Source: Acidobacteriota bacterium | Lineage (GTDB): Bacteria > Acidobacteriota > Thermoanaerobaculia > Thermoanaerobaculales > Thermoanaerobaculaceae | NCBI GenBank assembly: GCA_004298115.1 | Contig: SCRJ01000120.1 | Location: forward strand, 1 to 33,115 | Direction of reading: 5' to 3' | DNA length: 33,115 nucleotides | Part shown: positions 28,966-33,001 of the stretch, in pieces | How the letters are laid out: each line of letters begins with the position of its first letter | How positions within the stretch are numbered: the stretch's first letter is position 1 | Notes under the pieces: model-generated | What the model was told of the DNA's origin: nothing | The model's database searches: none | Seen by the model: only the letters and a program-made list of their open reading frames with translations | Translations under genes and position numbers: made by a program

Positions 28966-29091
28966 GGTTAACGCTGCGCTTCAGTGGGCCGGCCACTTTC
29001 ACCCTTGGCATACGACCAGCCTACCCCTGGACACCGCACGACGGCGGACTTGCCAGCCGTGTGGCCGGTCCACTGCAAGCTCCTGTTAGCT
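28966..29091 (+). repeat. attC site 0 (divergent)
   Basis: R'' GGTTAAC (28966-28972), R' GTTAGCT (29085-29091). Inner arms pair well: GCTTCAGTGG with CCACTGCAAGC, leaving an unpaired C in the right arm as in ordinary attC, and GGCCGGCCAC with GTGGCCGG. Both core boxes deviate from consensus, but the fold and the match of TTAGCT with the R'' of the next site support it. Confidence 0.75.
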
Positions 29092-29095
29092 GGCC

Positions 29096-29124
29096 TTGAC
29101 ATGTGCAGACAACGTGCATATAGT
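29096..29124 (+). promoter_or_regulatory. Promoter and likely operator of brnTA
   Basis: TTGACA (29096-29101), 17-bp spacer, TATAGT (29119-29124): near-perfect sigma-70. The GTG of brnT starts six bases after the -10, so it should be the +1. The spacer holds an imperfect inverted repeat ATGTGCA-N7-TGCATAT (29101-29121), which also gives GTGCA twice 11 bp apart. It is a good candidate for BrnA binding. Confidence 0.75.
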
Positions 29125-29130
29125 GATCCT

Positions 29131-29403
29131 GTGAGCTTCGAGTGGGACCCGCGGAAGGCCGACGCCAACCTCCGGAAACATGGCGTGGACTTCGCTGACG
29201 CCGCTCTGGCCCTTGAGGACGAGCACGCGATCACGATACCGGACGCGGCGAGTGCTTCGGAGGAGCGGCTCATAACCCTGGGCATGGACCCACTCGGCAC
29301 AGTTCTTGTGGTCGTGTACACCTGGCGCTCCGAGACGATTCGTCTCATCTCGGCCCGCAAGGCAACCCGCCGCGAAGCGCGGCAGTATGGGGAATGGCGA
29401 TGA
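29131..29403 (+). CDS. brnT: BrnT-family ribonuclease toxin
   Basis: A 90-residue toxin of the BrnT (RelE-fold) family. Landmarks: FEWDPRKADANLRKHGVDFA, GMDPLGTVLVVVYTWRSETIRLISARKA and RREARQYGEWR, all characteristic. BrnT cleaves RNA and is neutralised by BrnA, with which it is coded in one cassette (cassette 1). The GTG start at 29131 gives the family N-terminus and follows the -10 by six bases. An ATG at 29101 would overlap the -35 element. Its stop overlaps the brnA start (ATGA). Confidence 0.93.
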   Translation: MSFEWDPRKADANLRKHGVDFADAALALEDEHAITIPDAASASEERLITLGMDPLGTVLVVVYTWRSETIRLISARKATRREARQYGEWR

Positions 29404-29654
29404 AGAGCGAATACGACTTTGCTGGTGGCAAGCGGGGACCCGTGGGCAAGCCAGTTCCGGGCAAGACCCGGATCACGATCCGCATCGACAACGATGTGCT
29501 GGCCTGGTTCCGGGACGAGGTTCATCGTCGGGGCGGCGGCAACTACCAGAGCCTTATCAACGACGCCCTTCGCGAGCACATGAGCGCCAACCGGGAAGCC
29601 CTGGAGCTGAAGCTGCGGCGGATCATTCGTGAGGAACTCAAAAGGGCCAGCTAA
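29400..29654 (+). CDS. brnA: BrnA-family antitoxin
   Basis: An 84-residue antitoxin. The central PGKTRITIRIDNDVLAWFRDEV is the ribbon-helix-helix of BrnA, followed by GGGNYQSLINDALREHM. BrnA binds and neutralises BrnT and represses the operon. The ATG at 29400 is favoured over 29394 because GGGGA lies six bases before it and it overlaps the brnT stop. Its stop codon TAA lies inside the R'' box of the following attC (AGCTAAC), so the gene fills the cassette exactly. Confidence 0.94.
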   Translation: MKSEYDFAGGKRGPVGKPVPGKTRITIRIDNDVLAWFRDEVHRRGGGNYQSLINDALREHMSANREALELKLRRIIREELKRAS

Positions 29655-29749
29655 CGCTCGCGCTGACCTGCGGGCCGGGCTGGCGCGCCCGTTGCACCCC
29701 TGCAACGGGCGTGACAGGACGGGCCGTCAGGTCCAGCGCGCTGTTAGGT
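29649..29749 (+). repeat. attC site A (end of cassette 1)
   Basis: R'' AGCTAAC (29649-29655), R' GTTAGGT (29743-29749). Inner arms GCGCTGACCTG and CAGGTCCAGCGC pair with one unpaired C on the right. Central stem GCCCGTTGCA/TGCAACGGGC with a CCCC loop. Confidence 0.92.
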
Positions 29750-29762
29750 CGCTCTTGTCTGC

Positions 29763-30458
29763 TTACAGCCATCTCCTGACTCCTTCGACGATGCCAGCCA
29801 CGCCTGCTACCGAGCTTGTAAGGAGTTGTAGAGCTGATACACCTATGCCGCGAAACTGAAAGTCCACCCAGACGATTCGGTCAACGCGCTGGGCCGGGTG
29901 GGGCACCGGCAACTGAGTTCCAGGGTCGATGGGCACACCCCCGATGAAGACGCCCGCGCCGAACTTCACAGCTCTCGGGTCCCACCTCACTTCCCCGTCT
30001 CCAGGACCCGAGACTCTTACACGCTCTGACTCCACCCTGGACTGTTCGAGCAGCTCTCCATGCTTATTCTCGGAGTTGACACGGTTGAAGTCGCCGAGCC
30101 ACTCGCAGCCCTGGTGATAGGGTTGCTCCGACTCGAGGTATGCCCAGAGGTCTGGGCAGGCGGTTGCTAAGCCCGCAAACCAAGACGAGACCTTTTGCTC
30201 AAACGCCTGCCGTGACGGGAGAATGGGAAAGTAGAACCGCACACGAGGGTCGGCGCTGGGACAGTGTCTGGCGCGGAGGTCCTGCGCAAGATAGTCGAGG
30301 GCTGAGCGAAGATTACCGCACAGGTTCTTGATGTCGATTCTAAGGTCCGGGTCAATCTGCTTCGCCGCCAGGGAGGCCTTGTACCGGTTCATTATCGTGT
30401 CGAGATCTCGTCGTGAACGGTCCAAGAGGGCATCGATGCTGGTAGCACGACTACTCAT
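29763..30458 (-). CDS. Cassette 2 protein, unknown function
   Basis: A 231-residue soluble protein read against the attC direction. The first ~90 residues are mostly helical (SIDALLDRSRRDLDTIMNRY, LCGNLRSALDYLAQDLRARH), and a later NRVNSENKHGELLEQS is helix-forming. The last part is beta-rich (FGAGVFIGGVPIDPG, IVWVDFQFRG). The helical N-terminus with N-x-x-x-KH has a HEPN-like look, but the family is not recognised. GGGAGGG sits six bases before ATG; the start is 22 bp from the end of the cassette, so its promoter would lie in the attC or beyond. Confidence 0.7.
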   Translation of the reverse strand: MSSRATSIDALLDRSRRDLDTIMNRYKASLAAKQIDPDLRIDIKNLCGNLRSALDYLAQDLRARHCPSADPRVRFYFPILPSRQAFEQKVSSWFAGLATACPDLWAYLESEQPYHQGCEWLGDFNRVNSENKHGELLEQSRVESERVRVSGPGDGEVRWDPRAVKFGAGVFIGGVPIDPGTQLPVPHPAQRVDRIVWVDFQFRGIGVSALQLLTSSVAGVAGIVEGVRRWL

Positions 30459-30479
30459 GCCTGCCCTCCCTGAGAGGCG

Positions 30480-30602
30480 ACCTAACGCCGCCGTTCAGCC
30501 GCCCGCCGGCTGACCCCCTGAACTTGGGCATGGCACGACGATGAACCGAGGCCCGACTGCTGTGCAGGCAGCCCGGTCGCCTGGTCCAGCGCGCTGTTAG
30601 GC
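30480..30602 (+). repeat. attC site B (end of cassette 2), mosaic
   Basis: R'' ACCTAAC (30480-30486), R' GTTAGGC (30596-30602). The left arm is like sites C and D (GTTCAGCCGCCCGCCGGCTG) but the right arm (GGTCCAGCGCGCTGTTAGG) is like site A. The L boxes do not pair with each other, so folding is likely impaired. Confidence 0.85.
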
Positions 30603-30608
30603 CGCAAC

Positions 30609-30830
30609 CTACGGCGCGACGAGTTGCTCATGAGACAACTCGGTGTCGCGAAGGATCTTGGCCATCAGCCCCCGACCGATAGTCTCCCCCGCGTGAACGG
30701 GCACGACCGTGGCACGCCCGTCGGGATGCCGCAGAAACTGATGACTGCCCCGGGTGCGGATCACCTCGAACCCATGAAGCTTCAGCGCGGCGACGATCTC
30801 CTTGCCACTGAGCGCTCGATAGGGGTTCAT
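30609..30830 (-). CDS. hicA: HicA-family mRNA interferase toxin
   Basis: A 73-residue HicA with the double-stranded-RNA-binding fold. Features: GKEIVAALKLHGFEVIRTRGSHQFLRHPDGRA, with catalytic histidine in GSHQFL, and VPVHAGETIGRGLMAKILRDTEL. HicA cleaves mRNAs and is blocked by HicB. It starts inside the hicB stop (4-bp overlap), so hicB comes first and hicA second on the minus strand. Cassette 3 is read opposite to the attC orientation. Confidence 0.94.
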   Translation of the reverse strand: MNPYRALSGKEIVAALKLHGFEVIRTRGSHQFLRHPDGRATVVPVHAGETIGRGLMAKILRDTELSHEQLVAP

Positions 30831-31042
30831 GCGGGGATGCGAACGCGCTGCACACCGATAAAGTCGAGCGACTCCGCCGGCTCGCCCTCGACTTCCAGGC
30901 AGAGGCGGATCGCCTCGCGGGCCCGCTCCATGAGCTCGTCCAGCGAGCGCGCTTGCGTGTGGCAGCCACGCAGCGAAGGAACGGAAGCCACGTAGAATCC
31001 GTCCGCGTCCCGCTCCACGATGACGTCGAATTCCCGCTCCAT
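30827..31042 (-). CDS. hicB: HicB-family antitoxin (short form)
   Basis: A 71-residue HicB with the RNase-H-like partial fold: EFDVIVERDADGFYVASVPSLRGCHTQARSLDELMERAREAI. It ends soon after GVQRVRIPA, so there is no C-terminal DNA-binding domain like the one in many longer HicB proteins. It may thus neutralise HicA without repressing its own promoter strongly. TAGACT lies six bases before the ATG, implying a leaderless message; there is no Shine-Dalgarno at the right distance. Confidence 0.92.
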   Translation of the reverse strand: MEREFDVIVERDADGFYVASVPSLRGCHTQARSLDELMERAREAIRLCLEVEGEPAESLDFIGVQRVRIPA

Positions 31043-31048
31043 GCTGTA

Positions 31049-31054
31049 AGTCTA
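31049..31054 (-). promoter_or_regulatory. Candidate -10 element of hicBA (leaderless arrangement)
   Basis: TAGACT on the minus strand followed by TACAGC and then the hicB ATG, with exactly the same hexamer and spacing as at the response-regulator gene. No -35 is recognised; the region upstream is attC. Confidence 0.5.
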
Positions 31055-31074
31055 CACCCTTCTCCCCGCTTGCG

Positions 31075-31172
31075 GCCTAACGCCGCCGTTCAGCCGCCCG
31101 CCGGCTGGCGCGCGGCTTGCGCACGCAAGCCGCGTGACAGACGCGCGGGGCGGCTGCAACAGCTGGTTAGGC
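31075..31172 (+). repeat. attC site C (end of cassette 3)
   Basis: R'' GCCTAAC (31075-31081), R' GTTAGGC (31166-31172). GTTCAGCCGCC pairs with GGCGGCTGCAAC, leaving an unpaired C. Stem GCGGCTTGCG/CGCAAGCCGC in the middle. Confidence 0.95.
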
Positions 31173-31178
31173 AGCAGC

Positions 31179-31649
31179 CTAATAGCGAGGGACATATCGC
31201 CCATCGCGCGGAGGGCAGTCATAGGCGGGCATGACCATCTCCGGGAACACTTCAAGCTCGACAAAGGTGATTTGGCGCCGATATTGGCCGAGATGGCCGT
31301 AGTGACCCGGCCTAGAGATGTAAGCCGTCCCGCGGACGAAGACGTACCACCGCGGGTCTGGAAGGCTGTTCCATGGCGTCTCGTCGATCCAGAACCTTTC
31401 CATCGTCTGACAAGGTGCGAAGTAGGTACCATCACGAACTCGGACCCAGTGCCCAAGAACGGCCACAATTGGCTGCCCTGGCCCGCGTGGGGGGACACGC
31501 AGGAGCGGAGCGTCGGGTGCTGGACTAAGAAGGGCGACTCGTGGTGCGGGAGGCAACTCGGGGAGGCGCCGAACGTGTAGGCGGCTCCATGCCAGAAGCC
31601 CGATCATCAGCAAGAGCGCCGCGAGCAGCCAAGCGGAACGCCTAATCAC
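31179..31649 (-). CDS. Cassette 4 membrane-anchored protein, unknown function
   Basis: A 156-residue protein with one N-terminal helix (AWLLAALLLMIGLLAW, residues ~6-22) and a periplasmic or extracellular domain. The region WYVFVRGTAYISRPGHYGHLGQYRRQITFVELEV and VRVRDGTYFAPCQTMERFWID suggest a beta-rich fold; two cysteines (PCQ, DCPP) may pair. No family recognised. GTG start at 31649 with GGACGAG upstream; the gene fills the cassette to within 12 bp of each end. Confidence 0.65.
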   Translation of the reverse strand: MIRRSAWLLAALLLMIGLLAWSRLHVRRLPELPPAPRVALLSPAPDAPLLRVPPRGPGQPIVAVLGHWVRVRDGTYFAPCQTMERFWIDETPWNSLPDPRWYVFVRGTAYISRPGHYGHLGQYRRQITFVELEVFPEMVMPAYDCPPRDGRYVPRY

Positions 31650-31665
31650 TGTCGCTCGTCCTGCT

Positions 31666-31763
31666 GCCTAACGCCGCCGTTCAGCCGCCCGCCGGCTGGC
31701 GCGCCGGTTGCGCACGCAAGCGGCGTGACAGCCGAGTGGGGCGGCTGCAACGGCATGTTGGGC
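31666..31763 (+). repeat. attC site D (end of cassette 4)
   Basis: R'' GCCTAAC (31666-31672), R' GTTGGGC (31757-31763). Very like site C in length and left arm. GTTCAGCCGCC pairs with GGCGGCTGCAAC. Confidence 0.95.
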
Positions 31764-31776
31764 ACTGCCCTCGATC

Positions 31777-32277
31777 CTACCTTCCCTTTCCTGTGTCGCC
31801 GAGGAGCTTCAGCACTTCCTTGGCAGCTGCTACCGTTGCCGAATTCCCACACGTGTCGATTGTCAGTCTTCGACCGATCGGATCATCAAAGGTCTCTTCT
31901 GAAATGAAGAGGAGGTACTCTCCCCCAATTTCCAGCCAGAACCGTGCCGTCGAGTTCTCACTGAATAGCGCGACCTTGGGACCGGGACGCCCCTTGATGA
32001 CCCAAAGCACCTTGATTTCGTAGACAGCGCCAGCGTACGGATCGAAGCCCCAGGGCCTCGGACTGCCGCTTTGGAACGGCGGCTGGAGGGGCTTCGGTTT
32101 ACCGTCGTCTCCAAGCCAGGTCTCGCTTACCACGCGCCCCACGACCACATACTGAGACCGCGCCAACTCCTTTGACACCGAGTAGTAGTCTGGGTCGTAC
32201 CCGGGAAGAGAGGAATCCGAACCTTGGCAGTAGGCCAGAGCGATGACGGGCATGACCAAGATCATCGCGCTAAACAT
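31777..32277 (-). CDS. Cassette 5 secreted protein, NTR/TIMP-like pattern
   Basis: A 166-residue protein with a signal peptide (FSAMILVMPVIALAYCQG). The mature part has ARSQYVVVGRVVSETWLG, VYEIKVLWVIKGRPGPKVALFS and LEIGGEYLLFISE, then LTIDTCGNSATVAAAKEVLKLLG. This order (xxVVVGRV, strand with V-x-W-K-G, GG-x-Y-L-x-F, then C-G) resembles the netrin/TIMP-like secreted proteins found in many soil bacteria; most family cysteines are absent here. The function is unknown. ATG at 32277 lies seven bases from the attC; there is no ribosome binding site. Confidence 0.65.
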   Translation of the reverse strand: MFSAMILVMPVIALAYCQGSDSSLPGYDPDYYSVSKELARSQYVVVGRVVSETWLGDDGKPKPLQPPFQSGSPRPWGFDPYAGAVYEIKVLWVIKGRPGPKVALFSENSTARFWLEIGGEYLLFISEETFDDPIGRRLTIDTCGNSATVAAAKEVLKLLGDTGKGR

Positions 32278-32283
32278 GCATGT

Positions 32284-32378
32284 GCCCAACGCCGCCGTTC
32301 AGCCGCTGGCGCGAGCCTGCGCGGCGCGCAGCGCCGGCTTGCAGGCGAGTGACAGGCGGCTGCAACGGCCTGTTAGAC
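32284..32378 (+). repeat. attC site E (end of cassette 5)
   Basis: R'' GCCCAAC (32284-32290), R' GTTAGAC (32372-32378). CAGCCGC pairs with GCGGCTG and GTT pairs with AAC across an unpaired C. About 92% identical to site F (8 differences in 95 bp). Confidence 0.95.
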
Positions 32379-32381
32379 GGC

Positions 32382-32410
32382 TTGACGCCATAGCGTTCTA
32401 GCACTATATT
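32382..32410 (+). promoter_or_regulatory. Promoter of the RHH/RelE cassette
   Basis: TTGACG (32382-32387), 17-bp spacer, TATATT (32405-32410), ending seven bases before the ATG at 32418. The expected start of transcription is on or next to the A of the start codon. It starts four bases inside cassette 6 after the R' box. Confidence 0.72.
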
Positions 32411-32417
32411 GAACCCC

Positions 32418-32648
32418 ATGAGTGATGCTCGTCGCGTGACCGTCTACTTCGAACCGAACGTTCATCGTGCGCTGAAGCTGAAGGCTGCCTCCAGCGACCG
32501 GTCGGTTTCCGAGATGGTGAATGATGCTGTGCGTGCGGCCCTCGCCGACGACGCCGAGGACCTCGAGGCGTTTGAGAAGCGAGCCAACGAACCCGAGCGG
32601 GCCTTCGAGGACTTTGTGAGGTCGATGAGGCGAAGTGGGAAGATATAG
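32418..32648 (+). CDS. Ribbon-helix-helix antitoxin (CopG-like)
   Basis: A 76-residue antitoxin. RRVTVYFEPNVHRALKLKAA is a ribbon-helix-helix beta strand plus helix; SVSEMVNDAVRAALADDAEDL is the second helix; EKRANEPERAFEDFVRSMRR is an acidic C-terminus that should wrap the toxin. It overlaps the relE-like gene by 14 bp. ATG at 32418 is chosen over a TTG at 32409, which falls inside the -10. It is predicted to neutralise RelE and to repress the operon. Confidence 0.85.
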   Translation: MSDARRVTVYFEPNVHRALKLKAASSDRSVSEMVNDAVRAALADDAEDLEAFEKRANEPERAFEDFVRSMRRSGKI

Positions 32649-32904
32649 CCTCCGGATCAAGGACTCTGCGGCAAAGGAGGTCGAGCGGATCGAGCCGAAG
32701 AAGGTCCGGCGACAGATCGTCACTCGCATCCAAGGTCTTGCGACAGACCCGCGCCCACCCGGCTGTGAGAAGCTCGCCGGCGCAGGCGACCGCTACCGCG
32801 TCCGACAGGGAGCCTACAGGATCGTGTACGAGGTTCGCGACCTCGAACTCGTGGTGGTGCTGGTCAAGGTAGGACATCGGAGCCACGTCTACAAAACCCT
32901 CTAG
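32635..32904 (+). CDS. RelE/ParE-family toxin
   Basis: An 89-residue RelE-like toxin. Landmarks: YSLRIKDSAAKEVERIEPKKVRRQIVTRI, a dPrp-type GLATDPRPPGCEKLAG, and DRYRVRQGAYRIVYEVRDLELVVVLVKVGHRSHVYK, which is the family core (R-V-R-x-G-x-Y-R and GHR-x-x-VY). It is probably a ribosome-dependent mRNA interferase; ParE-type gyrase activity is the alternative. GTG start at 32635 with GAGGCGAA upstream, overlapping the antitoxin. The stop TAG ends two bases before the attC. Confidence 0.9.
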   Translation: MGRYSLRIKDSAAKEVERIEPKKVRRQIVTRIQGLATDPRPPGCEKLAGAGDRYRVRQGAYRIVYEVRDLELVVVLVKVGHRSHVYKTL

Positions 32905-32906
32905 CC

Positions 32907-33001
32907 GCCTAACGCCGCCGCTCAGCCGCTGGCGCGAGCCTGCCCGGCGCGCAGCGCCGGCCTGCGGGCGAGTGCCAGGCGGCTGCAGCGGCCTGTTAGG
33001 C
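32907..33001 (+). repeat. attC site F (end of cassette 6)
   Basis: R'' GCCTAAC (32907-32913), R' GTTAGGC (32995-33001). Same length as site E. A T-to-C change in the left arm (GTT to GCT) is matched by A-to-G in the right arm (AAC to AGC), so the pair is kept. Confidence 0.95.

Follow-up and report, generated by a model that had tools for sequence, protein, structure and literature searches.

The window analysed here, a stretch of 33,115 nucleotides from the genome of an Acidobacteriota bacterium, ends on its right side in the tail of an integron cassette array (28966–33001). The array tail carries seven attC sites, W, A, B, C, D, E and F, all on the minus strand; the letters used throughout for attC families (A, CD, EF, T, U, W and S) were coined here. 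Site W (28966–29091) is the W-type attC of a brnTA cassette and the last in the window array. Site A (29649–29749) is an intact A-type attC and belongs to the cassette of a 231-codon open reading frame. Intact attC of the CD type are found at C (31075–31172) and D (31666–31763), and of the EF type at E (32284–32378) and F (32907–33001). Site B (30480–30602), the subject of this report, lies between cassette open reading frames in an array with other attC, which is the context of an attC.

The right arms of sites A, C, D, E and F hold an extra, extrahelical base. The canonical top strand is therefore the minus strand, so that the array runs leftwards and the cassette at 30609–31042 (minus strand), which encodes the toxin-antitoxin pair HicBA, is the one to which B belongs. 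Its genes hicA (30609–30830) and hicB (30827–31042) match the Pfam families HicA (PF07927, 65.9 bits) and HicB-like (PF15919, 32.3 bits). The next cassette after HicBA is that of the 231-codon frame (ORF231; 29763–30458, minus strand), which matches no family in Pfam or NCBIfam and is served by attC A, and then follows brnTA with attC W. Two of the three toxin-antitoxin cassettes, BrnTA (29131–29654) and a RelB-like/ParE-like pair (32409–32904), are transcribed against the direction of the array, with their attC in normal orientation. An integron integrase is encoded apart from the window, on contig C9 of the same genome (TIGR02249, 459.3 bits against a cutoff of 265). This genome, of a soil bacterium and referred to as G000, comprises 3.97 Mb in 203 contigs and is 96% complete.

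What kind of attC is B? Both core boxes, R'' and R' (RYYYAAC / GTTRRRY), are present, as ACCTAAC at 30480–30486 and as GCCTAAC on the minus strand at 30596–30602. The L' arm and the greater part of the R' box (30483–30512, minus strand) are identical to the corresponding arm of sites C and D, and an alignment of 36 bases (30477–30512) matches these sites at 97% and 94%, respectively. The diagnostic arm of B agrees with the CD family at 17 of 17 bases and with the T family at 12 of 17. The R''/L'' arm at the other end (30578–30602, minus strand) is of the A type: GGTCCAGCGCGCTGTTAGG occurs exactly in both B and site A, and the right 19 bases of it in B are those of A. The 18-mer CTAACAGCGCGCTGGACC has five exact places in the 3.97-Mb genome, every one at an attC; allowing up to three mismatches adds one further match, and the reversed-pattern control gave 3+3, so that the arm matches of B are not due to chance. 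Four exact copies of the A-type 18-mer exist in the genome besides that in B.

A search of the genome with B returned a second long match, at C9:8826–8924, where the cassette that directly follows the integrase gene has its attC. All 99 of 99 bases are identical (30481–30579 of the window, minus strand), the CD-type arm and the long, T-type central loop included. The R''L'' arm of the C9 site is unlike that of B (AAGCGCTTGCAGCAG...), and the rest of B beyond the shared stretch, TAACAGCGCGCTGGACCAGGCG, is an A-type arm. The two parts overlap by the bases CG at 30578–30579, which probably mark the junction between the A-type arm and the C9-like stretch. Accordingly, the 5' arm of B was assigned to A, its loop to T and its 3' arm to CD, and both parental kinds, the C9 site and the A-type copies, are present in the same genome. 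B is a composite of three families, an A-type R''L'' arm, a T-type loop and a CD-type L'R' arm, in which the junction of CD arm and T loop is older than B itself, since it already exists in C9. An earlier note on this DNA had taken B for a mosaic of two attC families, with the left arm of C and D and the right arm of A. That B is a true mosaic of these two arms is confirmed; the third family had been missed, and came to light with the C9 match. An intact, identical site in another genome, which the note held would speak against its reading, was not encountered: no other copy of B was found among 148 genomes of the class. B is likewise without a match among the PLSDB plasmids (distant mode), and its junction pattern occurs zero times in viral contigs.

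The bottom strand of these sites, here the plus strand of the window, was folded and compared with 200 shuffled sequences. B scores a z of only −1.27, against −7.62 for A, −4.88 for C and −6.34 for D; the values for E, F, W and the C9 site are −2.53, −4.54, −2.67 and −2.38. The duplex between B's own arms (−11.2 kcal/mol) is the weakest of 55 sites measured, 44 family-concordant sites ranging from −36.7 to −14.9 kcal/mol, and is weaker than three quarters of chance pairs of arms from different families (median −13.3). Expected L''–L' pairs, computed for 63 sites, number 1.8 in B and at least 6.4 in the 46 concordant sites (median 17.7); shuffling the interior of B yields a mean of 3.6. Pairing persists between the R boxes of B (5.9 expected pairs). 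An attC is recognised by L''/L' boxes that are complementary and have an extrahelical base, and such boxes are lacking in B. Comparison with A, C and D, the check that the earlier note had put forward, reveals no normal attC fold for B and bears out its claim that the inner boxes are unpaired. On these folding models, B probably no longer folds like a normal attC.

Is B an isolated case? We surveyed 63 attC sites of the genus and one relative, from eight genomes (G000, G003, G006, G007, G008, G009, G010 and G013), at loci picked for likeness to B or to the cassettes of the window or of contig C13, so that the counts describe a biased sample. As the array region matched nothing in Rfam, attC were sought without a curated model. 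A fold-based attC finder, run on all loci, performed well on intact sites, missed or mis-cut several mosaics and reported many false hairpins in coding DNA; the site list was completed by finding arm patterns. When both arms of every site were assigned to seven reference families, 46 sites proved concordant and 14 discordant, with neither arm assigned in another 3; one U-type site at a contig overlap (L043:16635, L045:12162) may have been counted twice.

We accept 8 of the 14 discordant sites as mosaics, about 8 of all 63: three CD/T sites, three T/CD sites including that of C9, one S/EF site (L043:14850), and B. Seven of them hold the seven lowest L-pair values among the 63 sites, and the eighth, L043:17207, still pairs (14.3). 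The junctions of the T/CD mosaics fall inside a common AGCYGGCG, and these three sites are not clearly each other's nearest relatives. No more than 4 or 5 positions in 17 distinguish the 3' arms of T and CD, so that part of the family contrast rests on few positions, though each mosaic matches one of the two families at 15–17 of 17 or 16 of 18 bases and the other at 12–13 of 17 or 14 of 18. Other sites flagged by the script were not counted: L045:7483 and L045:4307 are short with weak scores, L011:2429 is a CD site whose loop is deleted, and L043:12890, L011:4525 and L041:14785 have one arm unassigned. By arm assignment, then, mosaics recur in the genus and B is one case of the pattern. Repeated patchwork sites in close relatives suggest that attC reshuffling is commoner than the textbook picture allows.

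Two individual sites may be mentioned here. At L043 (G010:C33):12890–13014, an A-type R''L'' arm is combined with a T-like loop and a 3' arm whose assignment is weak, and the arms partly pair. The attC of the first cassette after the integrase gene, L008 (G000:C9):2281–3926, is itself a mosaic, T-type in one arm and the loop and CD-type in the other arm; these arms pair poorly, so that even this cassette may be excised with difficulty.

A cassette is usually defined as one gene together with its own attC. Does this partnership endure among orthologous cassettes? In five cassette groups an attC, or what remains of one, could be classified in two or more copies, and in four of the five (HicBA, RelBE, BrnTA and the C13 cassette L011:2985) the attC family differs somewhere; in two further groups the tails of the G005 copies are unclassified. 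The HicBA ortholog of genome G010 is 90% identical over all 472 bases of the cassette body, and homology stops at R'': the attC is the mosaic B in G000 and a normal EF-type site in G010. RelBE is followed by an EF site in G000, a CD site in G008, a site in G010 that joins a CD arm and loop to a T arm, and decayed, CD-like sites in G011 and G013. BrnTA has a W site in G000, G007 and G010 and a U site in G006, and the C13 cassette a CD site in G000 and a T site in G007. The attC of hicBA2 is of the same family (U) across copies, truncated in G000. No recognisable attC accompanies the copies of RelBE in G008:C93, of BrnTA in G003 and of hicBA2 in G008:C53.

The change between EF and CD in RelBE may concern the loop only, as both L boxes are common to the two families. 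When the RelBE sites of G008 and G010 are compared, 66 of 74 bases are the same between R'' and the junction and 17 of 25 beyond it, which shows replacement of an arm within one cassette lineage. Another RelBE copy, at L138 (G008:C93):6630–7160, is 78% identical and possesses the cassette end sequences, with an attC on neither side; it may be a cassette inserted outside the integron, or a pre-cassette copy. A HicBA cassette with an A-type attC was not found among 31 HicA-relative loci in genome contigs, the flanks of 14 of which were inspected by eye; among these 14, only the G010 locus (L065) has an attC beside it. With about one site in eight a mosaic and orthologs that differ from R'' onward, we propose tentatively, as a distinct possibility and not as the likelier view, that attC are not permanent partners of their genes in this genus, and that arms, loops and whole sites are swapped between families.

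Contig C13 of the same genome holds attC from which parts are missing. At L011 (G000:C13):2935–2985, a second hicBA cassette and the one behind it are fused: the U-type attC of hicBA ends with the L'' arm, and the following cassette begins immediately after it, at AGACGCACC. A CD-type attC at L011:2429–2479 has lost its loop between two CGGCTG repeats, and a W-type attC at L011:4037–4133 is without its L'' box. The truncated and the loop-deleted sites show that deletions inside attC do happen in the genome of B.

How could B have arisen? Canonical integrase exchange carries an attC intact along with its gene, and so could not have made B; the earlier note's view that exchange at R' cannot generate such a site is upheld. 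We regard it as fairly probable that B, a genuine mosaic in three parts, came about when attC sites recombined at a place other than the R' crossover that they normally use. A deletion, or a template switch, between two nearby attC hairpins at short common sequences would be the most likely route, by which an A-type arm would have been joined to the edge of a C9-like loop through the two-base overlap CG. The same process would account for the remaining mosaics, that of C9 among them, and for the sites of C13 that are truncated or have lost a loop. Three points count against this explanation. The parental sites that the earlier note had sought were recovered in the genome as the C9 partner and the A-type copies, but an A-type parent with the exact flank of B (GGACCAGGCG) was not found there, the nearest being a 22-mer on contig C60 with one mismatch. 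The only ortholog of the HicBA cassette carries an EF-type attC, so that at least one further change is needed. Finally, a junction of two bases fits simple end joining as well.

Could part of a C9-like attC instead have been copied into an A-type attC of HicBA, by gene conversion or replication template switching, with no cassette lost? The presence of both parental kinds in the genome, and a tract identical at 99 of 99 bases, as a recent conversion would give, are consistent with such an event, which would leave the same traces as deletion; yet the HicBA ortholog is without an A-type attC, and we consider conversion unlikely. Less probable still is a swap made by the integrase itself, through rare top-strand recombination that cuts at R'', or through cutting within the attC, after which genes and attC would be re-paired. 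A gene with a strong integron integrase match exists, the homology of orthologs ends at R'' in both HicBA and C13_2985, and for the attC aadA7 top-strand recombination was measured at about 100-fold below that of the bottom strand (PMC6393395). The visible junction of B, however, lies at the edge of the loop and not at a GTT core, the T/CD junctions in AGCYGGCG likewise have no core site, and R'' is conserved across all families, so that short homology predicts the same breakpoints.

That the assembly joined two different sites at the 99-base repeat is quite improbable. The genome is indeed divided among 203 contigs, with the 99-base stretch occurring more than once, but the junction of A-type arm and loop is the entry into that repeat and is needed in the reads however the repeat is resolved, and G010, which was assembled separately, has similar mosaics on contigs 32 to 738 kb long. 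Least plausible of all, and disfavoured, is that B is a normal member of an attC family that has been sampled little, and that its likeness to the other sites reflects common ancestry: the T and CD 3' arms are indeed alike at 12 or 13 of 17 bases, but an intact family must pair with itself, as B fails to do, and 99 of 99 bases shared with C9 followed abruptly by an A-type arm do not resemble gradual divergence.

With an L box unable to form, the integrase would be expected to bind or cut the site poorly. Were B inactive, the HicBA and ORF231 cassettes would tend to move as one compound cassette between C and A, a locking that we infer from the modelled fold. Inactivity is not certain: the R boxes still pair, and a truncated attC elsewhere that can still be excised is cited in PMC4670013.

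Should reshuffling of this kind be real, attC turnover would be normal in some chromosomal integrons, and cassettes might plausibly acquire or replace an attC in this way, with consequences for the still open question of how cassettes originate. Mosaics whose arms pair badly would serve as a natural brake, keeping pairs of cassettes fixed. Similarity between attC, if these are swapped between cassettes, would record the history of the site and not that of the gene. The pattern of mosaics and orthologs allows the unsolved question of how genes and attC became paired to be tested in a set of sibling genomes. The sequence of attC has served to trace the origins of cassettes (PMC8352920).

In the open-access papers searched, we found neither recurrent mosaic attC nor orthologs of one cassette with attC of different families described for a chromosomal integron. 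Hybrid attC as such are already known, singly, from clinical integrons. For the loss of attC in fused cassettes, a review gives slippage or illegitimate action of the integrase as proposed causes (PMC8876359); the same two classes of mechanism are candidates for B, but there they are proposed for the loss of attC, whereas here full-length hybrid sites would result. Gene cassettes fused after partial loss of an attC are described as well, for example blaGES-1/aacA4 (PMC4670013). Like the defective attC of that pair, with which two cassettes move together, B is predicted to link HicBA and ORF231. Unlike that truncated attC, B is full length, retains both R boxes and takes its arms from different families; contig C13 of the same genome has a truncation like that of GES. 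The closest parallel is the hybrid arr-3/catB3 attC of the class 1 integron In1085, for which its authors judged recombination unlikely (PMC5454043). Like that site, B is an attC built from parts of the sites of different cassettes. In1085, as reported, is a single clinical case on a plasmid integron, with two parental sites, whereas B combines three families in an environmental genome, has an identical 99-base partner in that same genome, and belongs to a pattern that recurs in sibling species.
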